Positions 5,698 to 17,976 of a stretch of 64,000 nt of DNA are shown in pieces. The first letter of the stretch is position 1, and every line of letters begins with the position of its first letter. The DNA is from Peribacillus simplex (GTDB lineage Bacteria > Bacillota > Bacilli > Bacillales > DSM-1321): contig NZ_FTMX01000001.1 of the NCBI RefSeq assembly GCF_900156045.1, forward strand, positions 930,001 through 994,000, read 5' to 3'. Under the pieces are notes generated by a model. The model ran no database searches, was not told where the DNA came from, and was given only the letters and a program-made list of their open reading frames with translations. The translations under genes were made by a program, and so were the position numbers.

Positions 5698-7890
5698 ATG
5701 AAAAAACCGAATTTTTCTGCTATAAATCCTGCTAAGTCAGAGGTTAAAGGTACGGTGGAAGCATGGAAAAAGGAAGTCGAAAAAGCAGTTGGGAAAAACA
5801 TGGAGTATCTTCTGTTTGAAACCAACGAACAAATAAAAATCAAACCGCTTTATGTTGAGGAAGATAATCGCGATTTGGAGCATATGGAAAGTGTGCCAGG
5901 CATCGCTCCTTTTACAAGAGGGCCCTATCCTTCCATGTATGTCAATCGTCCTTGGACGGTACGCCAGTATGCAGGGTTTTCGACTGCCGAGGAATCCAAT
6001 GCGTTTTACAGGCGTAATCTGGCGATGGGGCAAAAAGGGCTCTCAGTTGCTTTTGATTTAGCTACACACCGCGGTTATGACTCCGATCATCCACGCGTAG
6101 TCGGTGATGTGGGGAAGGCGGGAGTTGCCATTGATTCCATTCTTGACATGAAAATCCTGTTTGACGGCATTCCGCTTGATCAGATGTCCGTGTCAATGAC
6201 GATGAATGGTGCTGTATTACCCATCCTTGCATTTTATATCGTGACAGCTGAAGAACAAGGCGTAACACAGGATAAGCTTTCAGGCACGATCCAAAATGAC
6301 ATCTTAAAGGAATACATGGTTCGGAATACGTATATCTACCCACCTGAAATGTCCATGAAAATCATAGCTGATATATTTGAGTATACATCCAAATATATGC
6401 CCAAGTTCAATTCCATTTCCATCTCCGGCTATCATCTGCAAGAAGCGGGGGCGCCGGCTGATATCGAACTTGCCTATACTTTGGCGGATGGGCTTGAGTA
6501 TGCACGTACCGGAATGAAAGCAGGTATTGATATCGATAAATTTGCACCACGCCTGTCATTCTTCTGGGCTGTAGGAATGAACTATTTCATGGAAGTGGCG
6601 AAAATGAGGGCAGCTCGCTTCATTTGGTCCAAACTGATGAAACAATTCGAACCGAAGAATAATAAAGCGATGGCATTGAGGACGCATTCCCAAACCTCCG
6701 GCTGGAGCCTCTCCGAGCAGGATCCGTTTAACAATGTCGCAAGGACCCTTATTGAAGCGCATGCGGCTGCACTTGGGCATACACAGTCCCTGCATACGAA
6801 CGCATTGGATGAGGCCATTGCCTTGCCAACTGATTTTTCGGCACGCATTGCACGTAACACACAGCTATATTTGCAGGAGGAAACCGGGATCACAAAAGTG
6901 ATCGATCCATGGGCGGGTTCATACTATGTAGAATCGCTCACTAATGAATTAATCGAACGGGCTTGGGCTCACATAGAAGAAATCGAAGGTCTCGGTGGAA
7001 TGGCGAAGGCTATTGAAACGGGCCTTCCAAAAATGAGGATCGAGGAAGCAGCTGCAAAGCGTCAGGCCAAAATCGATTCTCAAGTTGAAACGATCGTAGG
7101 CGTCAATAAGTATCGTTTGAAAAAAGAAGATCCTATTGAAATACTGGAGATTGATAATACGGTGGTTCGCGAAAGTCAGCTTAAGCGTTTGAGCGAATTA
7201 AAAGCGAAACGTGATCAGGCAAAGGTGGATGAAGCTCTTCAAGCGCTATCCATGGCAGCCAGAACTGGCGAAGGTAACCTTCTTGAACTGGCTGTCCAAG
7301 CTGCAAGAGTCCGGGCTTCATTAGGTGAAATATCCGATGCGATCGAAGAGGTGGCTGGACGTCACAAAGCAACGATCCGTTCCATCAGCGGCGTATATAG
7401 CTCGGCATACTCAAAAGAAGCGGAAATTGAGGAAGTCGTCCGCATGACGGAAGAGTTCCTTGAAAATGAAGGAAGAAGACCGCGTTTGTTAATGGCTAAA
7501 ATGGGCCAGGATGGTCATGATCGCGGAGCTAAAGTAGTAGGAACGGGGTTTGCGGATTTAGGCTATGATGTCGATATCGGTCCATTATTCCAAACACCGA
7601 AAGAAACCGCCATCCAGGCCGTGGAAAATGATGTGCATGTAGTCGGAATGAGTTCGCTTGCTGCCGGCCATAAAACTTTGTTGCCGCAGCTCATGACTGA
7701 ACTGAAGAACTTGGGCCGTGAGGACATTATAGTGATCATAGGCGGCGTCATCCCTGCACAGGATTATGATTACCTATTGGAAAATGGTGCTACAGCCATT
7801 TTTGGACCTGGTACGGTCATTCCACAGGCAGCGAAGAAAGTGCTTCAGGAAATATACAATCGCCTCGGATATGAGGAAGTGGCCCAATAA
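5698..7890 (+). CDS. mutB: Methylmalonyl-CoA mutase large (catalytic) subunit
   Basis: A 730-residue catalytic alpha subunit that interconverts (R)-methylmalonyl-CoA and succinyl-CoA with adenosylcobalamin. It shows the substrate-binding TIM barrel ([20 protein letters not shown], then [25 protein letters not shown] and [19 protein letters not shown]) and a C-terminal B12 domain with [11 protein letters not shown], in which H607 is the predicted cobalt ligand of DxHxxG. The length is normal. mutA ends one base upstream, and the meaB start overlaps the stop codon by one base, so the three form one transcript. Downstream mce (14649) and yqjD (15071) complete the propionyl-CoA to succinyl-CoA route. 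No cobalamin riboswitch was seen upstream. Confidence 0.97.
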
Positions 7891-9017
7891 TGAGTGAAGA
7901 CAAGAAGCCCGAATGGGTCGATCTTAACAATCAGGAAGGTTTTGCATCTTCATTGAAGCCAGGTGTTGAATTAACTGCCAGCCAAAACAAACCTTCAAAA
8001 AGCAAATTCGTCAAAAAACATAATGTAAACATACCGGTCCATGAACTTAAAGAGGGAATCATAAAAGGGGACAGGGCTAAGCTAGCTAAAGGGATTACAT
8101 TGGTTGAAAGCAATGCATCCCACCACTTGGATCATGCACAGGAATTATTGCATGCCATCCTTCCTCATACAGGGAACTCGATTCGCATCGGGATTTCCGG
8201 AGTGCCCGGTGCCGGAAAAAGTACCTTTATCGAGACGTTCGGAACTTACTTATGTGACAGGGGCCATAAGGTTGCCGTTCTAGCCGTCGATCCAAGCTCT
8301 TCAATCAATGGCGGTAGTATACTAGGTGATAAGACAAGGATGGAGGAACTGGCAAGAAACCCCCATGCCTTCATAAGACCCTCACCATCCGAAGGCACTC
8401 TAGGAGGAGTTCACCGCAAAACGAGGGAAACGATGTTGCTTTGTGAAGCGGCAGGATTTGATGTGATACTGATAGAAACTGTCGGTGTCGGTCAGAGTGA
8501 AGCTATAGTTCGAAGTATGGTCGACTTCTTCATGCTCCTCGTCCTAACGGGTGCCGGAGATGAATTACAAGGGATGAAAAAAGGGATTCTGGAACTTGTG
8601 GACGGAATTGTGGTCAATAAAGCCGACGGAGAGAACATTCCGCTGGCTATTAGGACGAAGTCCGAATATAGCAGAATCTTGCACTTCCTTCAGCCAGCAA
8701 CAAAGGGATGGGCAGGAAAGGCATATGCTTGTTCTGCCATAACCGGTAAAGGAATTCCTGAGCTTTGGGATGTATTGAATGAATTTTCCGATATGACCAA
8801 GGAAACGGGTGTTTTTCAGGAACGGAGAAGAATGCAATCTAAGGAATGGCTTTATTCATTGATTGATCACCAGCTTAAAACGATGTTTTATAAAAATGAA
8901 ACTGTCAAAGGACTTCTCCCTATACTCGAGAATCAAGTGATGTCAGGGAATAAAACGGTCACTGCTGCTGTTAAGCAGGCCTTTCAATCTTTTACAGAAA
9001 CATTTAAATCAAATTAA
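7890..9017 (+). CDS. meaB: MeaB/ArgK-type GTPase, methylmalonyl-CoA mutase chaperone
   Basis: A 375-residue G3E-family P-loop GTPase. The Walker A motif GVPGAGKST has K110, followed by [22 protein letters not shown], the Walker B-like [13 protein letters not shown], and NKADG as the guanine-specificity motif. MeaB proteins load and protect adenosylcobalamin in methylmalonyl-CoA mutase; older annotations call them LAO/AO transport ATPase (ArgK). Its position, overlapping the mutB stop by one base, supports the chaperone role. The first 80 or so residues are lysine-rich and longer than in the shortest homologues. A strong terminator follows. Confidence 0.93.
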
Positions 9018-9026
9018 AAAAGAAAT

Positions 9027-9074
9027 AGGATGGGGCATGCGTGGAATGTCTCCTAAGCATGCCCCATCCTTTTG
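9027..9074 (+). terminator. Terminator of mutA-mutB-meaB
   Basis: A 14-bp perfect stem (9027-9040 with 9057-9070) around the sequence aggatggggcatgc, followed by TTTTG. It lies 9 bp after the meaB stop. Confidence 0.88.
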
Positions 9075-9162
9075 TAAGTCTTGTTGTTTCACACATGATT
9101 CCCGCTTCTATTTCGTTTTAAACATGTTCGGAACGGTTTCTGCGGTTTAACAGGTAAATTTA

Positions 9163-9191
9163 TTGAATCACGAAGTGGCAATTGTTATGAT
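9163..9191 (+). promoter_or_regulatory. Candidate sigma-A promoter of brxB
   Basis: TTGAAT (9163-9168), a 17-bp spacer and TATGAT (9186-9191), 36 bp before the brxB start. Confidence 0.5.
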
Positions 9192-9226
9192 AGGATTGAA
9201 GAGAAAACTTGGAAGGAGCAAATGCC

Positions 9227-9664
9227 ATGAATATGGATTTTAATTTTTTAATGAACGACGTAGTCAAACAGGCTCGCGATGAGATAAAGACTGCTGGATA
9301 TACAGAATTGACCACTCCCGAGGAAGTAGAGGAAGTATTTGCACAAAAAGGAACGACACTTGTCATGGTAAACTCCGTTTGTGGCTGCGCTGGGGGGATT
9401 GCTAGACCTGCAGCTGCTCATGCAATCCATAATGATAAACGCCCAGATCAGCTTGTAACCGTTTTTGCTGGGCAAGATAAAGAGGCGACGGAAAAAGCCC
9501 GTGATTATTTCGAAGGGTATCCGCCGTCATCCCCATCATTTGCATTACTGAAGGATGGAAAAATCATCACCATGATAGAGCGTCATGAAATTGAAGGGCA
9601 CCACCCGATGTCTGTAGTAGAAAAATTACAAGACTACTTCGATCAATATTGCGAAGAAGTGTAA
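9227..9664 (+). CDS. brxB: Bacilliredoxin BrxB (YphP/YqiW family)
   Basis: A 145-residue thioredoxin-fold protein with the bacilliredoxin CGC motif ([16 protein letters not shown]). Bacilliredoxins remove bacillithiol from S-bacillithiolated proteins after oxidative stress. The N-terminus [11 protein letters not shown] and the C-terminal [10 protein letters not shown] segment fit the YqiW paralogue, and the position between the bkd region and artP is the yqiW position of B. subtilis. ATG 9227 is chosen because AAGGAG (9213-9218) is 8 bp upstream; an in-frame TTG at 9209 overlaps that site. A candidate promoter lies at 9163-9191, and a hairpin that is also the edge of a repeat follows the gene. 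Confidence 0.93.
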
Positions 9665-9687
9665 GCCCATAGCCATAGCTATAGCTA

Positions 9688-10036
9688 AAAAACCCGCCCA
9701 ATCGGCGGGTTTCAGTTTGTAGACAAAAGGGGTTCGGAATCCGTCTCATCCCGAACCATGATGATAAAAAGAAGACATGGTTATCCCTCATGAATTTTAC
9801 CTTTTTTATAGGGAATGAAATCCTTATTGGATTGAAGAAATATGCGACACTCCTGCCGAATTACTGTCTAGCCGAGACCCCGCAGGCGCTTGCGCGAGGA
9901 GGCTTGGCAGACAGTCGGCGGAAAGGGAGCGGATTTCTGAAATCAACTGGAATGTTTTTTTAGAAACAAACCGTAGTCAAACTCGCTTTTCTTGAAGTTT
10001 GTCTACATCTGAAACCGCCCATCCGGCGGTTTTTTT
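9688..10036. repeat. Composite intergenic repeat, copy B, bracketed by inverted hairpin arms
   Basis: The left arm (about 9691-9730: hairpin, then tttcagtttgtagacaaa) is mirrored by the right arm (about 10034-9997 on the minus strand: hairpin, then tttcagatgtagacaaac). Between them lies a GC-rich block (9845-9932) that is itself an imperfect hairpin, since ctgtctagcc near 9864 pairs with ggcagacag near 9906. The minus-strand piece 10012-9971 is homologous to the bkd terminator at 3213-3256, and the GC-rich block to 3291-3390. No open frame of note lies inside. The remainder of this intergenic gap up to 10300 holds the artP regulatory region. Confidence 0.65.
9691..9714 (+). terminator. Short GC-rich hairpin after brxB
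   Basis: AACCCGCC (9691-9698) pairs with GGCGGGTT (9704-9711); only a short T-run follows. It doubles as the left outer hairpin of the repeat block 9688-10036. A sister hairpin of nearly the same sequence, with eight Ts, stands at 10012-10034. Confidence 0.6.
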
Positions 10037-10146
10037 TATTCATGATTTTGCATAAGTCAGGGGCATTTAGGAAAGAAGATAGATAAGGATGCCGAAATAT
10101 TTCCCTTTGGAGCTTAAAGCGCGAAAGTTAGAAATAAAATTATAGC

Positions 10147-10161
10147 AATATTCTGAAAAAT
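10147..10161 (+). promoter_or_regulatory. Candidate CodY box upstream of artP
   Basis: AATATTCTGAAAAAT differs at two positions from the 15-bp CodY consensus (AATTTTCWGAAAATT). It lies just upstream of the candidate -35. CodY control would suit an amino-acid importer. Confidence 0.4.
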
Positions 10162-10180
10162 AAATCTATTATTTACGTTA

Positions 10181-10238
10181 TTGAATAATTATAAGAGTGT
10201 GTTAAAATACACATTAGTGTATGAATATTAGTTATTCA
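10181..10238 (+). promoter_or_regulatory. Candidate artP promoter with downstream palindrome
   Basis: TTGAAT (10181-10186), a 16-bp spacer and TAAAAT (10203-10208) form a sigma-A-like promoter. A palindrome TGAATATTAGTTATTCA (10222-10238) follows near the expected transcription start. The half-sites TGAAT/ATTCA look like an ARG box, but the 7-bp spacer is longer than the 4 bp of the ArgR/AhrC consensus, so the binding protein is not assigned. Confidence 0.45.
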
Positions 10239-10300
10239 AATTTTAACTAAACCAAATTCAATAACAAGAGAATTGAAAATATCATTTTGGAGGAATAATA

Positions 10301-11110
10301 ATGAAGTTGAAAAAGCAGTTAGCATTGTTGCTTACTTCTGTTTTATTAGTAGGTATTTTAGCAGCATGCGGAACATCCGGGAAAGAAGATAAGGACACAG
10401 CTGGTACAGAAGACAAAAAGGTTCTGGTAATGGGAACTTCTGCGGATTATCCGCCATTTGAATATGTTGAAACATCTAAAAGTGATGAAATCAAAGGATT
10501 TGACATCGATATCGCTAAAGCAATCGGAAAAAAATTAGGTTATGAAGTTCAAGTGAAGGACATTGACTTTAATAGTCTTGTGCCTGCTCTGGAAAATAAA
10601 TCGGTCGATTTCGTTATCTCTGGAATGACGCCAACAGCAAAACGTGAGCAATCAGTCGATTTCAGTGATATTTACTATACAGCTAAAAACATGATCATCA
10701 CGACAAAGGACAGTAAAATCAAAACTGTTGAAGATTTAAAAGGGAAAACCGTAGGCGTACAGCTTGCATCCATTCAGGAGACATTGGCAAATGACTTGAA
10801 TAAATCCCAAGATATCGGGATGAAAGTTGAAAAACGGAACCGTATTCCTGAGGTTGTTCAAGAAATGTCAACAGGACGTTTTGATGCCGTGATCATGGAA
10901 GATACTGTGGCAAAAGGCTACCTGAAAGATAATAAAGAATTGGTGGGCCATGTGATCACGTCCGGTGAACAAGATGCCGGTTCGGCAATCGCTTTCCAAA
11001 AAGGAAGCAAGTTAACTGAAGAATTCAATGCCGAGTTGAAAAAAATGATGGAAAATGGTGAAATGGAAAAATTAATATTAAAATGGTTCGGTGGCAGTGA
11101 AACTGAATAA
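10301..11110 (+). CDS. artP: Amino-acid ABC transporter substrate-binding lipoprotein (ArtP/YqiX)
   Basis: A 269-residue extracellular solute-binding protein of family 3. A lysine-start signal peptide ends in the lipobox LAAC (residues about 21-24), so the mature protein is a lipoprotein on the outer face of the membrane. Family features are the SADYPPFEY start of the domain, GFDIDIAKAIGKKLG, the FVISGMTPTAKREQSVDFS segment and a C-terminal LILKWFGG. By position and partners it corresponds to B. subtilis ArtP (YqiX) of the arginine importer; the substrate is inferred, not shown. A terminator separates it from artQ, so the binding protein is probably made in excess over the membrane parts. Confidence 0.88.
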   Translation: MKLKKQLALLLTSVLLVGILAACGTSGKEDKDTAGTEDKKVLVMGTSADYPPFEYVETSKSDEIKGFDIDIAKAIGKKLGYEVQVKDIDFNSLVPALENKSVDFVISGMTPTAKREQSVDFSDIYYTAKNMIITTKDSKIKTVEDLKGKTVGVQLASIQETLANDLNKSQDIGMKVEKRNRIPEVVQEMSTGRFDAVIMEDTVAKGYLKDNKELVGHVITSGEQDAGSAIAFQKGSKLTEEFNAELKKMMENGEMEKLILKWFGGSETE

Positions 11111-11122
11111 TGCAGAGAGATG

Positions 11123-11166
11123 AAAAGCGTTCAGAAGAGATTTAGCATGCCTTCTGAACGTTTTTC
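11123..11166 (+). terminator. Partial terminator between artP and artQ
   Basis: CGTTCAGAAG (11128-11137) pairs with CTTCTGAACG (11151-11160), extended by AAAAG and a T-run. It sits inside the art operon and should reduce, not abolish, transcription into artQR. Confidence 0.8.
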
Positions 11167-11241
11167 CGCGCTTTATTGTTAATAAAATGAAGCAGGAGGA
11201 AGGACCTAAGATAACGGCCTTCATAAGAGAGGATGAATGGA

Positions 11242-11901
11242 GTGAATCTGGAATTTGAAAGGATTATGCCTTCCCTTCCATATATCCTGGAGGGAATACC
11301 GACTACATTAAAGGTTGTAGCGGTAGCGGCAGTAATCGGATTTGTTTTGGGAATATTACTATCTATACTTAAAATCAGCAGAATCAAGCCCTTGAATTGG
11401 ATTGCTGATTTTTATACATCCATTTTTCGCGGTACGCCTTTGGTGCTGCAATTAATGTTGATTTATTTTGGTTCACCACAAATATTAGGGATTCAAATCG
11501 AAGCGTTCCAAGCAGCATTTTTAGCATTCGGGCTGAATTCAGCGGCATACATCTCCGAAATTATCAGGGGAGGCATTTTAGCTGTCGATAAAGGCCAACG
11601 AGAGGCTTCGCTTGCACTGGGGGTTCCCTATTCAGGGATGATGCTTAATATTATCCTTCCGCAGGCCATCAAGAATATCCTGCCATCCCTTGTGAACGAA
11701 TTGATTTCCTTAACGAAGGAATCAGCCGTTGTCACAATTATTGGATTAGGGGATATCATGCGCCGTGCTTATATTGTCGGCGGTGAGACATATAAATTCT
11801 TCGAGCCGATATTATTTGCCGGCCTCATTTATTATGTGATGGTCATGGTTCTCACCATCTTAGGCAAAGTGATTGAAAGGAGAATGAGACGCAGTGATTA
11901 A
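11242..11901 (+). CDS. artQ: Amino-acid ABC transporter permease (ArtQ/YqiY)
   Basis: A His/Glu/Gln/Arg/opine-type (HEQRO) permease of about 219 residues with several hydrophobic segments and the EAA-loop region ([20 protein letters not shown]). GTG 11242 is preferred because the AGAGG site (11228-11232) is 9 bp upstream; ATG 11233 sits immediately against that site and would add three residues. It forms the membrane channel with ArtR as ATPase and ArtP as receptor. The 3' end overlaps artR by 8 bp, so translation is coupled. Confidence 0.88.
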
Positions 11902-12616
11902 AATTGATGGACTCAAAAAAAATTATGGAAAGCTCGAGGTATTAAAAGGGATCAGCACCGAGATAGGGCAGGGTGAAGTATTAGCCATCATCGGTCCATC
12001 CGGTTCGGGAAAATCAACTTTCTTGCGCTGCATCAATATGCTCGAAACTCCTACTGATGGTCAAATCAGGTTTAAAGATCAAATCATCACTGATAAAAAG
12101 ACCAATATCATGAAAGTGCGTGAAAACGTCGGGATGGTATTTCAGCATTTTCATTTATTTCCACATAAAACCGTACTGGAAAATCTGACATATGCACCTA
12201 TGAAGGTGAAAAAACTATCAAAGGCCGAGGCTGTAAAACAAGCTCGTGAGCTCTTGACTAAAGTCGGTTTGGCCGATAAAGAATCGTCTTATCCGAATCG
12301 TCTGTCTGGCGGGCAAAAACAAAGGGTCGCGATTGCACGGGCATTGGCAATGAACCCGGAAGTAATCCTTTTCGATGAGCCGACTTCAGCGCTTGATCCC
12401 GAGATGGTAAAAGAAGTGCTCGAGGTTATGAAGTCACTGGCACATACGGGGATGACCATGCTGATCGTAACGCATGAAATGGGATTTGCGAGAGAAGTGG
12501 CCGATCGTGTACTATTCCTGGACGGGGGTCTGCTCGTTGAGGAAAGTGCTCCGGAAGAATTCTTTTCCAATCCGAAAAGCCAGCGTGCAAAAGACTTCTT
12601 GGAAAAAGTTTTATAA
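11894..12616 (+). CDS. artR: Amino-acid ABC transporter ATP-binding protein (ArtR/YqiZ)
   Basis: A 240-residue ABC ATPase of the polar amino-acid uptake class. Walker A is GPSGSGKST, the Q-loop lies in [12 protein letters not shown], the signature is [15 protein letters not shown], Walker B is [13 protein letters not shown] and the switch histidine is in VTHEMGFA. The start is GTG 11894, inside the end of artQ, with AAAGGAG 11 bp upstream. It is the last gene of the operon, and a good terminator follows 27 bp after the stop. Confidence 0.92.
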
Positions 12617-12642
12617 GCTAAAGAAAATAGTATATAATTGTG

Positions 12643-12674
12643 AAAAAAGGTAACGTTTAGGTTACCTTTTTTAT
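12643..12674 (+). terminator. Terminator of the art operon
   Basis: A 12-bp perfect stem AAAAAAGGTAAC (12643-12654) with GTTACCTTTTTT (12661-12672) around a 6-nt loop. Confidence 0.9.
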
Positions 12675-12808
12675 TTTTTTCCTATAATGTATTTTTGCTT
12701 GAAATGTATTTAGAAAAATTGGAAATTTAGCTCGCAAAGGACTGTGAAAATATCTGATTTCCTGATAGTATTATAATAGATAGAGAAAGTGCCAGGTGAT
12801 ACATAACA

Positions 12809-13798
12809 ATGTTTAAAATCGGATACAGGACGATTAAAACTGCTTTGGGGGCCACCCTGGCAATTATTATTGCACAAATGCTTAATCTCGAATATTTCTC
12901 TGCTGCGGGAATCATTGCGATCTTATGCATTCAAGTTACAAAAAAGAAGTCGGTGTATGCCTCCTGGCACCGGTTTTTAGCTTGTTTGATCGCAATGGCC
13001 TATGCATCCCTATTCTTTCATTTCATCGCATTCCATCCGCTGATGATAGGTTTGATCCTCTTGATTTTCATTCCAACGACAGTTGCTTTGAAGATTAATG
13101 AGGGGATTGTGACGAGCAGCGTCATCATCATGCATTTATACGGGGCGGGTGACATCACTTTTTCCCTGCTGATCAATGAAACGATATTAATTGCAGTTGG
13201 AGTTGGAGTGGCGCTTGTCATGAATCTGTACATGCCCAGTGTCGATGATAAACTGCTGGCCTACCAGGAAAGCATCGAAACGAACTTTAGTGCGATCTTG
13301 ATGGGAATTGTCCGCTATTTAAGGGATAATGATCACACATGGGATGGTAAGGAAATCACCGACACAGCCAATCTGCTTAATCAAGCCAAAAGCCTTGCCT
13401 TCAGGGACGTGGAAAATCATTTTTTAAGGGAAGAAGACCTGTATTACCATTATTTCAAAATGCGTGAAAAGCAATTTGAAATAATTGAACGAATTCTGCC
13501 CCTAGTCACGAATATTCCACTGGTTGTCAAGCAAAGCGGAATAGTGGCTGATTTTATAGAAGATTTGGCAGAAAACGTACACCCACAAAATACGGCCATC
13601 CTTTATCTGAAGAAGCTTGAGGAAATGGAGATTCATTTTAGGGGAATGGCACTGCCGCAGACACGGGAAGAGTTCGAATCCAGGGCCGCATTACTGCAGC
13701 TCATGAAGGAAATGGAGCGTTATTTATTGTTGAAGCATTCCTTCAAGGGACTGCCCAAGCTGAACAGCAGCCGAATGAAAAAGAGGCACTTGGCTTAA
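12809..13798 (+). CDS. yqjA: YqjA family membrane protein (aromatic acid exporter-like, DUF939)
   Basis: A 329-residue protein. The first 140 or so residues form about five hydrophobic segments (LGATLAIIIAQML, then FHFIAFHPLMIGLILLIFIP and others), typical of the ArAE/FUSC-like DUF939 N-terminal half. The remaining 190 residues are charged and predicted helical, and probably cytosolic. Homologues are grouped with aromatic acid exporters, but transport has not been shown for YqjA as far as I know. The weak AGGTGA site is 9 bp before ATG 12809. The next gene, yqjB, follows after 31 bp, as in B. subtilis, so the two are probably co-transcribed. Confidence 0.82.
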   Translation: MFKIGYRTIKTALGATLAIIIAQMLNLEYFSAAGIIAILCIQVTKKKSVYASWHRFLACLIAMAYASLFFHFIAFHPLMIGLILLIFIPTTVALKINEGIVTSSVIIMHLYGAGDITFSLLINETILIAVGVGVALVMNLYMPSVDDKLLAYQESIETNFSAILMGIVRYLRDNDHTWDGKEITDTANLLNQAKSLAFRDVENHFLREEDLYYHYFKMREKQFEIIERILPLVTNIPLVVKQSGIVADFIEDLAENVHPQNTAILYLKKLEEMEIHFRGMALPQTREEFESRAALLQLMKEMERYLLLKHSFKGLPKLNSSRMKKRHLA

Positions 13799-13829
13799 AC
13801 TAAGCAAAAAAGTGAAGGAATTGATACAA

Positions 13830-14345
13830 ATGAAATGGATCCTTTCTTTGTTGCTCATGCTATCTTTGTGGCCGTTGCAGGCACAAGCCCAACCTCAATC
13901 GGTTAAGCCTGGCGATCCGTTTATCATCATCAATAAAGCCAACAATAAATTGGCGTTCATTGATGATAACGAGGTCAAGGAGATCCTGCCGGTCGGTACG
14001 GGAAAGAGTCAAGAACTTACACCTGAAGGGATTTTCACGGTCAAAGTAAAAGCAGTCAATCCATATTACCGAAAAAAAAATATTCCTGGCGGCGATCCCA
14101 GGAATCCTCTGGGGTCGCGGTGGATTGGATTCGATGCACGAAATACCGATGGAAGGATTTACGGCATTCATGGTACGAATCAGCCATCATCAATTGGTAA
14201 ATACATTTCAAATGGCTGTGTACGGATGCATAAATCCGATGTAGAGCGGTTATACGAAAAAGTCCCCATCGGCACTAAAGTGTTGATCACCATATCGAAC
14301 GAGGATTTCAAAACGTTGGCAAAGAAAAATGGGGCGATAAAATAA
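13830..14345 (+). CDS. yqjB: Exported L,D-transpeptidase (YkuD domain)
   Basis: A 171-residue protein with a signal peptide (MKWILSLLLMLSLWPLQAQA) and a YkuD catalytic domain. The active-site pattern is complete: H114 in YGIHGTNQPSSIG, then SNGCVRM with the nucleophile C130 and the following Arg. Such enzymes make 3-3 cross-links in, or modify, peptidoglycan outside the membrane. ATG 13830 is chosen for the GAAGGA site and the clean signal peptide; a GTG at 13812 overlaps that site. No LysM domain is present, so it differs from YkuD itself. Its 3' end faces the prli42-like gene, and a shared hairpin lies between them. Confidence 0.88.
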   Translation: MKWILSLLLMLSLWPLQAQAQPQSVKPGDPFIIINKANNKLAFIDDNEVKEILPVGTGKSQELTPEGIFTVKVKAVNPYYRKKNIPGGDPRNPLGSRWIGFDARNTDGRIYGIHGTNQPSSIGKYISNGCVRMHKSDVERLYEKVPIGTKVLITISNEDFKTLAKKNGAIK

Positions 14346-14369
14346 AGAGAGGGAAGCTTTGCTCCCCTC
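14343..14369 (-). terminator. Hairpin between convergent yqjB and the prli42-like gene
   Basis: GAGGGAAGC (14349-14357) pairs with GCTCCCCTC (14361-14369) with one wobble and a 3-nt loop. On the minus strand it is followed by TCTTTATTTTA, so it is a better terminator for the small minus-strand gene than for yqjB. Confidence 0.7.
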
Positions 14370-14385
14370 CCAATTACGGTTTCTA

Positions 14386-14481
14386 TTACAAAAGAAATGC
14401 GATACCTGATAATAAGCTCGTTAATAACATTGAGATAAGCATTAAATACACGACGATTTTTCTGATTTTCTTGTTTCCCAT
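14386..14481 (-). CDS. prli42: Prli42-like stressosome-associated mini membrane protein (31 aa)
   Basis: An open frame of exactly 31 residues: a short basic head (MGNKKIRKIV) and one hydrophobic helix (VYLMLISMLLTSLLSGIAFLL). Size, charge pattern and topology match Prli42, the 31-residue protein that anchors the stressosome to the membrane in Listeria and is conserved in Firmicutes. An AAGGGAG site lies 6-8 bp before the ATG, a TTGTTT-17-TAAAAT promoter lies upstream (14544-14516), and a terminator lies downstream. It is divergent from mce and convergent with yqjB. The identity rests on remembered family features; the existence of a gene is well supported by its signals. Confidence 0.75.
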   Translation of the reverse strand: MGNKKIRKIVVYLMLISMLLTSLLSGIAFLL

Positions 14482-14515
14482 ATGCTCTCTCCCTTAAAAC
14501 AGTTTAATTGATTTT

Positions 14516-14544
14516 ATTTTAACTTGAACATTTAGTAGAAACAA
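14516..14544 (-). promoter_or_regulatory. Candidate sigma-A promoter of the prli42-like gene
   Basis: On the minus strand, TTGTTT (14544-14539), 17 bp, then TAAAAT (14521-14516), 35 bp before the start codon. Confidence 0.5.
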
Positions 14545-14648
14545 GTAAAAGTATAATGTTCATATTATTCCGAATCTTAAAAGGCTTTAATGCAAGATTA
14601 GTAGTATTTTAATGGAGTCATCCAATCATACATAGCATGGGGGTTTTT

Positions 14649-15074
14649 ATGATGATTAAAAATATCGATCATATAGGTATTGCCGTCAAGTCACTGGAGG
14701 AAGCCTTGCCGCTTTACACGGAAACGTTGAAATTGAAACTTGAAGGAATCGAGACAGTGGAGAGCCAAGGAGTGAAAGTGGCCTTCATCCTGGCAGGCAA
14801 TACCCGTTTGGAGTTGTTGGAAGCGTTGTCACCGGCAAGCCCAATCGCCAAATTCATCGAAAAACGCGGTGAAGGGATTCATCATGTGGCACTTGGCGTC
14901 GATGGCATCGAAGATAGAATAAAAGAAATCAAAGAATCTGGATTGCGCATGATTGATGATTCATCAAGAAAGGGAGCGCACAATGCGGATGTTGCTTTCG
15001 TTCATCCCAAGTCTACCGCGGGTGTATTATATGAGCTTTGTGAACAAGCATTATCAAAGGAGGAGCAGGAATGA
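14649..15074 (+). CDS. mce: Methylmalonyl-CoA epimerase
   Basis: A VOC-fold protein of about 141 residues (YqjC in B. subtilis) that interconverts (S)- and (R)-methylmalonyl-CoA. Metal-ligand positions are visible: H8 in NIDHIGIAV, the His in GIHHVALGV and the Glu in LYELCEQ. The start is ATG 14649 or 14652 behind GGGGG (14639-14643); ATG 14637 would overlap that site. The stop overlaps the yqjD start by 4 bp (ATGA), so the two are translationally coupled. With YqjD and MutAB it links propionyl-CoA to succinyl-CoA. Confidence 0.9.
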   Translation: MMIKNIDHIGIAVKSLEEALPLYTETLKLKLEGIETVESQGVKVAFILAGNTRLELLEALSPASPIAKFIEKRGEGIHHVALGVDGIEDRIKEIKESGLRMIDDSSRKGAHNADVAFVHPKSTAGVLYELCEQALSKEEQE

Positions 15075-16621
15075 CAGACATATACGATACAATCAATGAC
15101 CTATATGACAGACGCCGCAAAGTGGAAATGGGCGGCGGTGAAGAAAGAATCGATAAGCAGCATGAAAAGGGCAAACTTACTGCAAGGGAAAGAATTGATC
15201 TTTTAGTTGATCCGGGTACTTTCATAGAGCTTAATCCTTTTATCAAACACCGTAATACCAATTTTGGCATGGAAAAGGAAGAAGGGCCAGGAGAAGGGGT
15301 TGTCACTGGTTACGGAAAGGTCAACGGCCGCGACATTTATCTGTTTTCACAGGATTTTACTGTTTTTGGCGGCGCACTCGGTGAAATGCATGCTCTGAAA
15401 ATTGCCAATGTTATGGATTTGGCAGCGGAAAATGGAGCCCCTTTCATAGGTTTGAACGATTCTGGTGGGGCTCGCATTCAAGAAGGCGTAGTTTCGCTTG
15501 ACGGATATGGCCAAATTTTTTACCGGAATTCCATTTATTCAGGGGTCATTCCACAGATTTCGGTTATTATGGGACCTTGTGCAGGCGGAGCCGTATATTC
15601 CCCAGCCATAACCGACTTTGTCTTCATGGTTGAAAAAACGAGCCAAATGTTCATAACAGGTCCTAAAGTCATTGAAACGGTTACAGGTGAAAAGATTTCA
15701 TCTGAAGGATTGGGTGGAGCGACAGTACATAATACCATAAGCGGTAATGCCCATTTCAAGGGAGCATCTGAGGAGCAAGTATTGGCGGACGTTAGACGTC
15801 TCCTGAGTTATCTTCCACAAAATAATGAAGAGAAGCCGCCGGTTTTGGAAGCAGACGATGGAGATGACTACCGTCCGGATTTAACGGATGTAGTCCCTTA
15901 TGAAGGGATCCGTCCATATGATGTTCGGAAAGTATTGGAGCAGGTTGTCGATGAGGATTCCTTTATGGAAGTTCAAGAGGGCTTTGCGAAAAACATAGTG
16001 ATCGGCTTGGCGCGTATCAAAGGGAAATCAGTGGGGCTTGTCTGTAACCAGCCAAAGGTATTGGCTGGGGGACTTGATATCGATTCATCAGATAAGGCTG
16101 CCCGTTTTATTCGTTTCTGTGACTCGTTCAACATTCCGCTAATTACGTTTGAAGACGTTTCAGGGTTTTTCCCGGGCGTTAAACAAGAACATGGCGGGAT
16201 CATTCGCCACGGTGCAAAGCTGCTATATGCATATTCAGAAGCGACAGTACCAAAATTGACGATCATTCTGCGTAAAGCATACGGTGGAGCTTACGTAGCT
16301 CTTAATAGTAAATCAATCGGTGCGGATCTTACGTTTGCATGGCCGAATGCTGAAATCGCGGTTATGGGTTCTGCTGGAGCGGCAAATATCATTTTTGCCC
16401 GTGAAATTCAAAATAGCCAAGATCCGGAAGCGACACGTGCAGCTAAAATTGAAGAATACCGTGAGAAGTTCGCCAATCCATATGTTGCCGCAAGTCTTGG
16501 AATGGTGGATGATGTTATCGATCCCCGTGAAACCAGGATTAAGATCATTCAATCTCTTGATATGCTACGCAACAAAAAAGAAACCCGACCATGGAAAAAA
16601 CACGGGAATATCCCGTTGTGA
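15071..16621 (+). CDS. yqjD: Propionyl/methylmalonyl-CoA carboxyltransferase subunit
   Basis: A 516-residue crotonase-fold carboxyltransferase (PccB/MmdA type), full length for the family. Visible are FGGALGEMHALKI, the GGARIQEGV acyl-CoA binding region in the N-terminal half, and GFFPGVKQEHGGIIRHGAKL, GGAYVALNSK and EIAVMGSAGAANIIF in the C-terminal half. It moves carboxyl from carboxybiotin to propionyl-CoA, or the reverse. The biotin carboxylase and biotin carrier subunits that it needs are not in this window, so its partner must be elsewhere. It forms an operon with mce, and a terminator follows after 14 bp. Confidence 0.9.
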   Translation: MTDIYDTINDLYDRRRKVEMGGGEERIDKQHEKGKLTARERIDLLVDPGTFIELNPFIKHRNTNFGMEKEEGPGEGVVTGYGKVNGRDIYLFSQDFTVFGGALGEMHALKIANVMDLAAENGAPFIGLNDSGGARIQEGVVSLDGYGQIFYRNSIYSGVIPQISVIMGPCAGGAVYSPAITDFVFMVEKTSQMFITGPKVIETVTGEKISSEGLGGATVHNTISGNAHFKGASEEQVLADVRRLLSYLPQNNEEKPPVLEADDGDDYRPDLTDVVPYEGIRPYDVRKVLEQVVDEDSFMEVQEGFAKNIVIGLARIKGKSVGLVCNQPKVLAGGLDIDSSDKAARFIRFCDSFNIPLITFEDVSGFFPGVKQEHGGIIRHGAKLLYAYSEATVPKLTIILRKAYGGAYVALNSKSIGADLTFAWPNAEIAVMGSAGAANIIFAREIQNSQDPEATRAAKIEEYREKFANPYVAASLGMVDDVIDPRETRIKIIQSLDMLRNKKETRPWKKHGNIPL

Positions 16622-16635
16622 TCCAACATTGCAAG

Positions 16636-16666
16636 GAGCCCAAACTATCTGTTTTGGGCTCTTTTC
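16636..16666 (+). terminator. Terminator of mce-yqjD
   Basis: GAGCCCAAA (16636-16644) pairs with TTTGGGCTC (16653-16661), followed by TTTTCC. Confidence 0.85.
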
Positions 16667-16854
16667 CATACTGGGGAAGATATCATTTTTTAAAGAAAAT
16701 CATTTTAGTCATCATTCACCTTTTTAAAGCGGCCTATTGGCAGGGAAATGACCAGGATGCTTTTTTAGCCGGGCCTTCCTTTTCACATTATTTGCCGGGG
16801 CGCCGCTTTTAGCAGTATAATTAAAGAGGAAAACTTTTTTGGAGGTTTTATTTT

Positions 16855-17976
16855 ATGATTAATGAAGAACGTTTAGTTAATGAATTTATGGAATTGGTGC
16901 AGATCGATTCCGAAACGAAAAATGAAGCAGCCATCGCCAAAGTGCTGAAAGAAAAATTCGGGGCACTGGGTGTAGAGGTTTTTGAAGATGATACAACAGC
17001 AGTTACCGGTCATGGTGCAGGGAATTTAGTATGTACTTTAAAAGGAAATAAAGAAGGCGTGGATACCATCTATTTCACCTCCCATATGGATACGGTTGTA
17101 CCAGGTAATGGGATCAAGCCTTCCATCAAAGATGGATACATAGTTTCAGACGGAACGACCATTTTAGGGGCGGATGACAAAGCTGGATTAGCGGTCATGT
17201 TAGAAACGCTTAAAGTGTTGAAAGAACAGAATATCGAGCATGGTACAATCGAATTCATCATTACAGTCGGTGAAGAATCTGGCTTGGTAGGGGCAAAGGC
17301 ATTGGACCGCTCCCTAGTAACGGCTAAATTCGGTTTTGCACTTGATAGTGATGGTAAAGTGGGCAATGTGGTTGTTGCTGCACCTACTCAGGCGAAAGTA
17401 TCTGCAACCATTTTAGGCAAGACTGCTCACGCTGGTGTCGCTCCCGAGAAAGGCGTTTCGGCCATTACGATCGCTGCCAAAGCAATCTCTAGAATGCCAT
17501 TAGGCAGAATCGACGAGGAAACGACAGCCAATATCGGAAGGTTCCAGGGGGGACAGCAAACCAATATTGTTTGTGACCATGTTGAAATCCTTGCAGAAGC
17601 AAGATCCTTGATTCCTGAAAAAATGGAAATACAGGTAGCGAAAATGAAAGAGGCATTCGAGACTGCAGCCATTGAAATGGGCGGACGTGCCGAAGTTGAA
17701 GTTAACGTCATGTATCCTGGTTTTAAATATGGTGCTGGTGATCATGTAGTCGAAATCGCAAGAAAGGCAGCAGAGAAAATCGGCCGTCCTTGCGAGCTGG
17801 TTAAAAGCGGCGGAGGAAGCGATGCGAATGTCATTGCAGGCTTTGGCATCCCTACTGTCAATCTCGCAGTGGGCTATGAAGATATCCATACTACGAATGA
17901 AAGAATCCCAGTTGAGGAATTAACGAAGCTAGCTGAAATGGTTGTCAGTATCGTCAAAGAAGTATCAGGGGAATAA
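16855..17976 (+). CDS. yqjE: M20-family peptidase, PepT-like (YqjE)
   Basis: A 373-residue cytosolic metallopeptidase of the tripeptidase T-like subgroup. The two-zinc site is recognisable: SHMDTV (first His and the Asp that follows), ADDKAGLA (bridging Asp), the catalytic GEESGLVG, the LDSDG ligand and a C-terminal His in GYEDIHTTNERI. The middle dimerisation domain starts near KTAHAGVAPEKG. A GGAGG site lies about 10 bp before ATG 16855. It probably trims small peptides; the natural substrate is not shown. It has its own space upstream (233 bp with an AT-rich promoter-like stretch) and a long gene-poor gap downstream. Confidence 0.87.
   Translation: MINEERLVNEFMELVQIDSETKNEAAIAKVLKEKFGALGVEVFEDDTTAVTGHGAGNLVCTLKGNKEGVDTIYFTSHMDTVVPGNGIKPSIKDGYIVSDGTTILGADDKAGLAVMLETLKVLKEQNIEHGTIEFIITVGEESGLVGAKALDRSLVTAKFGFALDSDGKVGNVVVAAPTQAKVSATILGKTAHAGVAPEKGVSAITIAAKAISRMPLGRIDEETTANIGRFQGGQQTNIVCDHVEILAEARSLIPEKMEIQVAKMKEAFETAAIEMGGRAEVEVNVMYPGFKYGAGDHVVEIARKAAEKIGRPCELVKSGGGSDANVIAGFGIPTVNLAVGYEDIHTTNERIPVEELTKLAEMVVSIVKEVSGE

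Follow-up and report, generated by a model that had tools for sequence, protein, structure and literature searches.

Does a prli42 gene tell us that a bacterium ties its stressosome to the membrane? We asked this for a very short frame of Peribacillus simplex, located in a window, by which we mean the whole analysed stretch of 64,000 nucleotides (contig NZ_FTMX01000001.1, positions 930,001 to 994,000). A sequence-only reading had proposed that the frame at 14386-14481 is a 31-codon gene resembling prli42, the stressosome membrane anchor, and that the stressosome of this organism is consequently membrane-tethered. The position was right and the strand is minus; the plus strand of 14386-14481 has stops throughout. 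The features of the locus are as follows.

14386..14481, minus strand: prli42 coding sequence, 31 codons plus TAA (ATG at 14481, TAA ending at 14386)
14489..14495, minus strand: AAGGGAG, resembling a Shine-Dalgarno site, 7 nt upstream of the ATG (by reading of the sequence)
14516..14521, minus strand: -10-like TAAAAT, taken from an aligned block and a spaced pattern in the family
14539..14544, minus strand: -35-like TTGTTT, 17 nt from the -10
14347..14371, minus strand: intrinsic terminator, 11-pair stem and 3-nt loop, then TTTATTTTAT on the strand of the gene
13812..14345, plus strand: ldt, YkuD-type L,D-transpeptidase, convergent neighbour (PF03734, E 1.3e-24)
14637..15074, plus strand: mce, methylmalonyl-CoA epimerase, divergent neighbour (TIGR03081, 152.9 bits)
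15071..16621, plus strand: carboxyltransferase gene after mce (TIGR01117, mmdA-like, 842 bits, below the cut-off of 998.8)

The peptide, MGNKKIRKIVVYLMLISMLLTSLLSGIAFLL (31 aa), has the length and type that had been noticed: a basic head (K4, K5, R7 and K8) followed by one hydrophobic stretch of helix length, whose KD19 maximum of 2.33 is, by hydropathy, that of a single membrane-spanning helix. It shares with Prli42 of Listeria, a 31-aa miniprotein, its length, the basic head with K4 and K5, the one hydrophobic stretch and a full-length match to the family profile; unlike Listeria Prli42, it has K instead of R at position 8 and an additional R7.

The frame also carries its own ribosome site and terminator, as had been described. 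AAGGGAG-like sites lie upstream of most of the 71 family members that we compared, a count biased by the start-choosing script, which favoured starts with a ribosome site. The terminator folds with a dG of -19.1 kcal/mol (z -2.57), and 3 of 200 shuffles folded at least as well. The promoter-like sequence, TTGTTT-17-TAAAAT at 14544-14516, agrees with the promoter consensus at 8 of 12 positions and was absent from the list of the consensus promoter scanner, which named no promoter at the right place before prli42, because its threshold was 9 of 12. Further, the sequence was kept as an aligned block, with some letters changed, in 28 loci (22 distinct genomes), in an alignment in which much of the surrounding gap sequence drifts, and it is conserved in the genus. 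The pattern TTGnnn-N16..18-TAnnnT was found within -90..-15 in 55 of the 71 loci compared with 6.8 expected from mononucleotide shuffles, although these loci are not independent, since they are related. A SigB-like promoter pattern (one pattern was tried) was absent within 200 nt upstream in all 71 loci. A sigma-A-type promoter of its own probably drives prli42.

The Prli42 family model (NF033880) matched the peptide over residues 1-31 of 31 with an E-value of 1.4e-14 and 53.5 bits, against a cut-off of 27.5, and was its sole NCBIfam match at E <= 10; among Pfam families there was a weak match to DUF7396 (E 0.016). A profile of 35 family members that excluded the genus also scored the peptide at 53.5 bits, and 1000 shuffles of the membrane segment scored on average 6.5 bits against the same profile (sd 4.3, maximum 28.2). 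All 39 family-member peptides of our alignment (A2) matched NF033880, partly by construction. Prli42 was above the cut-off in 21/21 genomes of the set of relatives, and the locus itself was 96.6% identical to that of Peribacillus frigoritolerans RU293. Among 10 own-genus sequences of equal length, mean pS was 0.55 and mean pN 0.09, which indicates purifying selection. Each of the 71 loci allowed a start codon to be assigned; they were chosen for their match (relatives, best matches and 20 hand-picked loci) and are not a random sample; nine of these starts were GTG or TTG, and two (L028 and L030) were doubtful and were excluded from residue-position counts. We conclude that prli42 is a genuine gene, an ordinary further member of the known Prli42 family; its translation, its membrane topology and any binding to RsbR are predictions for this organism.

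Several unusual copies were seen. In the genomes of L028 and L030 (G018 and G013), the Prli42 match begins at model position 7 and the head is longer and more basic; both lie in the usual slot, with a methylmalonyl-CoA-mutase-like gene adjoining. Another genome (G002) carries, beside a normal Prli42, a second Prli42-like frame (L032 1501-1587) with a long, very basic head and a sub-cut-off score of 24.9 bits. One locus (L110) in a record named Paenibacillus sp. FJAT-29882 is of the Peribacillus type, and the record is probably misnamed. In a sample of 249 genomes of the phylum, there were nine Prli42 matches. Eight were above the cut-off, all within Bacilli; the ninth, outside the class, was below the cut-off and inside a 380-aa frame, so that no above-cut-off match lay outside Bacilli in this sample.

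The gene occupies a recurrent chromosomal slot. The mce gene adjoins prli42 in 13/13 own-genus loci, a neighbourhood whose conservation had been proposed as a check. Among the 71 chosen loci, genes of a shared neighbourhood were found on both sides in 64 and on at least one side in 70, and every one of them was antiparallel to prli42. The slot is bounded on one side by mce (40 loci) and pccB (39), by a PepT-like peptidase gene (23), by gnd (7) or by a mutA-like gene (6). On its opposite side there is a gene for a membrane protein of the ArAE type (37 loci), ldt (26), bacilliredoxin (21), a gene for the E2 component of a 2-oxo-acid dehydrogenase (18), lipB (12) or meaB (9). Pfam or NCBIfam matches support the names mce, ldt and ArAE; PepT-like, lipB, E2, bacilliredoxin, gnd and meaB were named from NCBIfam through one representative or the window homolog, and mutA-, recN- and obg-like by reading only. 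In the window, prli42 lies amid meaB, mce, carboxyltransferase and PepT-like genes (7890-17976), a propionyl/methylmalonyl-CoA neighbourhood, and this association recurs.

We then considered the stressosome. The source genome possesses rsbR, rsbS, rsbT, rsbU, rsbV, rsbW, sigB and rsbX in a row (contig L034, 4797-9665), so the rsbRST genes that had been suggested as a check are present, and the setting resembles that of Listeria in that prli42 coexists with genes for RsbR, RsbS and RsbT. The Rsbr_N domain (the RsbR turret) scored 133.2 bits, RsbT 262 bits (its own sequence being part of the query alignment) and SigB 415.7 bits against a cut-off of 315, with a second, non-operon match of 155.7 bits; rsbS, rsbU, rsbV, rsbW and rsbX were assigned by gene order and sequence reading.

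In Listeria, K4, K5 and R8 of Prli42 are reported to contact E109, E110 and E113 of RsbR; pull-downs in which these residues of the two proteins had been mutated are described, and the RsbR contact mutant fails to restore survival in peroxide and iron (passages of PMC6614362). Further, the membrane localisation of RsbR1 was Prli42-dependent by PALM in Listeria, and the prli42 deletion had no growth or acid-survival defect and no stress phenotype (passages of PMC9840623); a study cited in a passage of PMC12153296 found RsbR1 at membranes without Prli42. The Listeria literature, in these passages, is in conflict, with an essential stressosome link on one side and dispensability for sensing on the other.

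Unlike the RsbR of Listeria, the RsbR of the source genome lacks the reported contact glutamates at that place: a three-residue gap and N/Q stand opposite E109, E110 and E113. The motif E-E-x-x-E was found by eye at the contact place in 0/11 RsbRs of our alignment (A4), its own RsbR included; seven of these 11 rows are of the genus, and the Listeria sequence is not among them. Acidic residues elsewhere in RsbR could substitute for the three glutamates. On the side of Prli42, the 32 distinct peptides from genomes with neither Rsbr_N nor strong RsbT were basic at position 8 in 32, at position 5 in 31 and at position 4 in 22 cases, and the 25 distinct peptides from Rsbr_N genomes in 24, 22 and 24 cases, respectively. 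The head thus stays basic whether or not the known partner is present, and position 4 is under some additional constraint in genomes that have Rsbr_N.

We surveyed 398 Bacilli genomes drawn evenly from the class, in which species are not independent. Prli42 was matched in 193 genomes (160 above and 33 below the cut-off) in a first pass that scored at most 19 candidates per genome and may have lost small genes. Rsbr_N was found in 60 genomes and RsbT at E <= 1e-25 in 141. Prli42 and RsbT occurred together in 96 genomes, Prli42 alone in 97, RsbT alone in 45 and neither in 160, a positive association (odds ratio 3.5, Fisher p 7e-9, for species that are not independent). All 60 Rsbr_N genomes matched Prli42 at E <= 1e-3, and 57 of them at E <= 3e-6.

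The two genes nevertheless come apart in both directions. On one side, the 97 Prli42 genomes without RsbT at E <= 1e-25 fell to 70 when Prli42 was held to E <= 3e-6, and 41 had Prli42 at E <= 1e-10: 32 of family f26, six of f13 and one each of f18, f25 and f31. In f26, 32 of the 36 Prli42-matching genomes were of this kind; the per-family counts cover genomes with matches, the non-matching ones being mostly unlisted, so there is no full denominator. The highest score for Prli42 in the survey, 61.5 bits, was that of an f13 genome (G231) with no Rsbr_N match, RsbT of at most 30.2 bits and a best sigma factor of at most 168 bits against the SigB cut-off of 315, and several other f13 copies were near the top. 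Among the f13 and f26 genomes that were examined, no sigma-factor match exceeded 210 bits against the same cut-off. Such sub-cut-off matches do not prove the absence of SigB from these families, because PMC9847131 scores both Geobacillus and Paenibacillus as having sigB; complete stressosomes were found in general in the Bacillus and Listeria species listed in the passages of that paper. From evidence that includes the sigma factors, f26 appears Paenibacillaceae-like and f32 Staphylococcaceae-like. In f32, 15 of 32 Prli42 matches were above the cut-off and four genomes examined had SigB at 454-462 bits; no f32 genome was among the RsbT matches at E <= 1e-25, and a loose search of three gave no match.

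On the other side, the RsbT-strong families with Rsbr_N matched Prli42 in 15 of 15 cases (f45 only below the cut-off) and those without Rsbr_N in 0 of 3 (p 0.0012). The latter, f34, f44 and f56, comprise 41 genomes with strong RsbT and no Prli42 match. In members such as G042, G062 and G031, RsbT was strong and neither Rsbr_N nor Prli42 was matched, and in G042 the strong RsbT gene lay about 2 kb from a SigB gene. Perhaps the stressosomes of these three families use another type of RsbR sensor and no Prli42.

A Prli42 genome without its stressosome was also found within the genus. The locus of G011 is 96.9% identical over 3.1 kb to that of Peribacillus asahii MA001. Rsbr_N and RsbT were searched across genus members: G011 gave no Rsbr_N match, and its RsbT scored 106 bits against 251-265 bits in the 12 other members searched, the source genome included. 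SigB, checked in G011 and the source genome, was below the cut-off in G011 (157 bits). The same genome keeps Prli42 (locus L018, 52.7 bits), with pN of 0.07-0.28 and pS of 0.62-0.93 relative to those 12 members. Judged by these scores, G011 lacks SigB and the stressosome yet retains Prli42.

We considered whether the dissociation arose because one of the genes had been missed. When 16 genomes with Prli42 and no strong RsbT, G011 not among them, were searched loosely, no RsbT match exceeded 43.5 bits. Three genomes had no match, and in 12 of the 13 others the best match adjoined a gene for a sigma factor, which is where SpoIIAB or RsbW would be expected (G052 was the exception). Conversely, the PepT-like gene was located in 15 of the 41 RsbT-strong genomes of the Prli42-free families (10 of f44, three of f34 and two of f56), and none had a prli42 beside it; this covers the PepT-like side of the slot. 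The family profile run on the stretches around the gene in these 15 genomes gave a best E-value of 0.67 (6.7 bits). One of them (L177) has an unrelated-looking hydrophobic frame of 31 codons nearby, and two others have longer ones. Further, the shared slot was common to six loci each of f13 and f32 and to most loci of f26, with L090 (f26) outside it. The stressosome-free Prli42 copies examined are thus mostly the same gene by position and not look-alikes.

These results fit a partnership of Prli42 with Rsbr_N that is nested inside a wider distribution of Prli42. With moderate confidence, we regard Prli42 as an old membrane microprotein of Bacilli that has a stressosome-independent role and, in organisms with globin-type RsbR, can also serve to tether RsbR. 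Anchoring is probably not its sole job, because relatives keep prli42 where the stressosome is missing, and it is the distribution together with the selection that argues for the independent role. The gene would encode a microprotein that spans the membrane once, with its basic head in the cytosol, as the charge distribution (positive-inside rule) and the Listeria reports suggest. The family would be an old part of the Bacilli envelope, in which selection holds head and helix for a job that needs no stressosome; most likely the peptide docks onto, or is a small subunit of, some membrane complex that many Bacilli possess. Where RsbR bears Rsbr_N, as here, the same basic head would also hold RsbR at the membrane, as reported in Listeria, and so tether the stressosomes. 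Tethering may occur in P. simplex, because of the Listeria work and the presence of the partner genes.

There are points against this reading. Prli42 is positively associated with RsbT. The match in 60/60 Rsbr_N genomes and the lack of Rsbr_N in the three Prli42-free families would be the expectation for a dedicated Rsbr_N partner, although Rsbr_N occurs in lineages that mostly have Prli42 anyway. Position 4, more often basic in peptides from Rsbr_N genomes, the sigB records of PMC9847131 and the position of L090 also weigh against it. Prli42 in stressosome-free lineages could also serve another RsbR-like protein.

That Prli42 is a dedicated stressosome anchor, its basic head binding the RsbR turret and keeping the stressosome at the membrane for signal input, and its rsbRST-free copies being leftovers or reused, is possible, and we think it rather doubtful. 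The NCBIfam family is named for its association with the stressosome; the contact-mutant pull-downs (PMC6614362) and the PALM localisation of RsbR1 (PMC9840623), as given in the passages cited above, agree with such a role, as do the rsbRSTUVW-sigB-rsbX genes of the source genome, the 60/60 match in Rsbr_N genomes and the positive association with RsbT. Leftovers should decay, however, yet top-scoring copies stand in f13, without Rsbr_N or RsbT and in the same slot. Three RsbT-strong families gave no Prli42 match, and in the 15 of 41 genomes where the PepT-like gene was located, a search beside it yielded none. Further, E109, E110 and E113 are not in place in the RsbR of this organism (0/11 by eye for E-E-x-x-E), and the passages on Listeria include a deletion without a growth or acid-survival defect (PMC9840623) and RsbR1 at the membrane without Prli42 (study cited in PMC12153296). 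Thus the label of stressosome anchor stood in part: the gene belongs to the prli42 family, its genome has rsbRST and every Rsbr_N genome matched Prli42, but Prli42 is also retained without Rsbr_N and RsbT. The further claim, that the gene implies a membrane-tethered stressosome, does not follow, because genomes in which Rsbr_N and RsbT were not found, several of them also without an above-cut-off SigB, retain Prli42, and the contact glutamates are not in place. The disagreement within the cited Listeria passages on the weight of Prli42 in stress sensing weakens this implication too.

We consider it unlikely that Prli42 serves a respiratory oxidase, or a similar membrane complex, as accessory subunit or assembly factor. 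According to a passage of PMC12153296, the founding study saw cytochrome D co-purify with Prli42, and the size and one-span form of Prli42 are like those of KdpF, AcrZ and CydX-type subunits (named in passages of PMC11539335 and PMC12350097). However, phmmer of the peptide against the sequences of solved structures gave no match at E <= 10, a 39-member profile gave two chance-level matches (the better, E 0.17, to a photosystem II peptide), and no oxidase gene was among the named recurrent neighbour clusters. Neither search gave a credible match that would place Prli42 as a named subunit of a complex. Something so short, in a gap between two opposite-strand genes, might be suspected of being a chance frame, or of encoding an antisense or leader RNA in place of a protein. 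This is very improbable against a full-length family match far above the membrane-segment shuffles, a pS much larger than pN and a start codon in all 71 loci (chosen for their match).

Prli42 may have a wider kinship. The peptide scored 13.8 bits against DUF4044 (PF13253), whose gathering score is 21.8, and is therefore not a member of that family and at most related to it. DUF4044 was found in 42 of the 398 genomes (41 above the cut-off), of which 36 are in f48, f27, f54 and f60, families that appear streptococcus- or lactobacillus-like; the Lactococcus lactis control was matched by the DUF4044 model. Like Prli42, DUF4044 has a basic head, a single hydrophobic stretch and a similar core; unlike Prli42, it has a longer head and, by reading, RecN-like or Obg-like neighbours (L065-L076). 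A profile-profile comparison of the two families gave a probability of 94.6 over 26 columns. The DUF4044 model matched 15 of 39 Prli42 peptides at E <= 0.1 (best 9.6e-8), and both models matched the same place in G066, G124, G165, G254, G333 and G377. The Prli42 model matched only four of 12 DUF4044 peptides at E <= 0.1. When nine DUF4044 peptides were compared with 200 shuffles each, five exceeded all shuffles, one was reached by two, two were not above them, and for one the control was invalid. DUF4044 thus looks like a sister family of Prli42. We see about equal grounds for and against the view that the two form one class-wide microprotein family, whose core job would be outside the stressosome and whose tethering would have come later, tied to the globin-type RsbR turret.

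Prli42 in rsbRST-free genomes is not treated in the literature passages on Prli42 that were covered, and the dissociation may have been described elsewhere. The gene in the window is itself ordinary, and the informative part is the double dissociation, with Prli42 retained without RsbR and RsbT, and RsbT without Prli42. If the wider family is real, the name "stressosome-associated protein Prli42" misleads for many of the genomes that carry it. A membrane-tethered stressosome should accordingly not be read from the gene name alone, and the dissociated genomes offer a ready natural set in which to seek the other role of Prli42.
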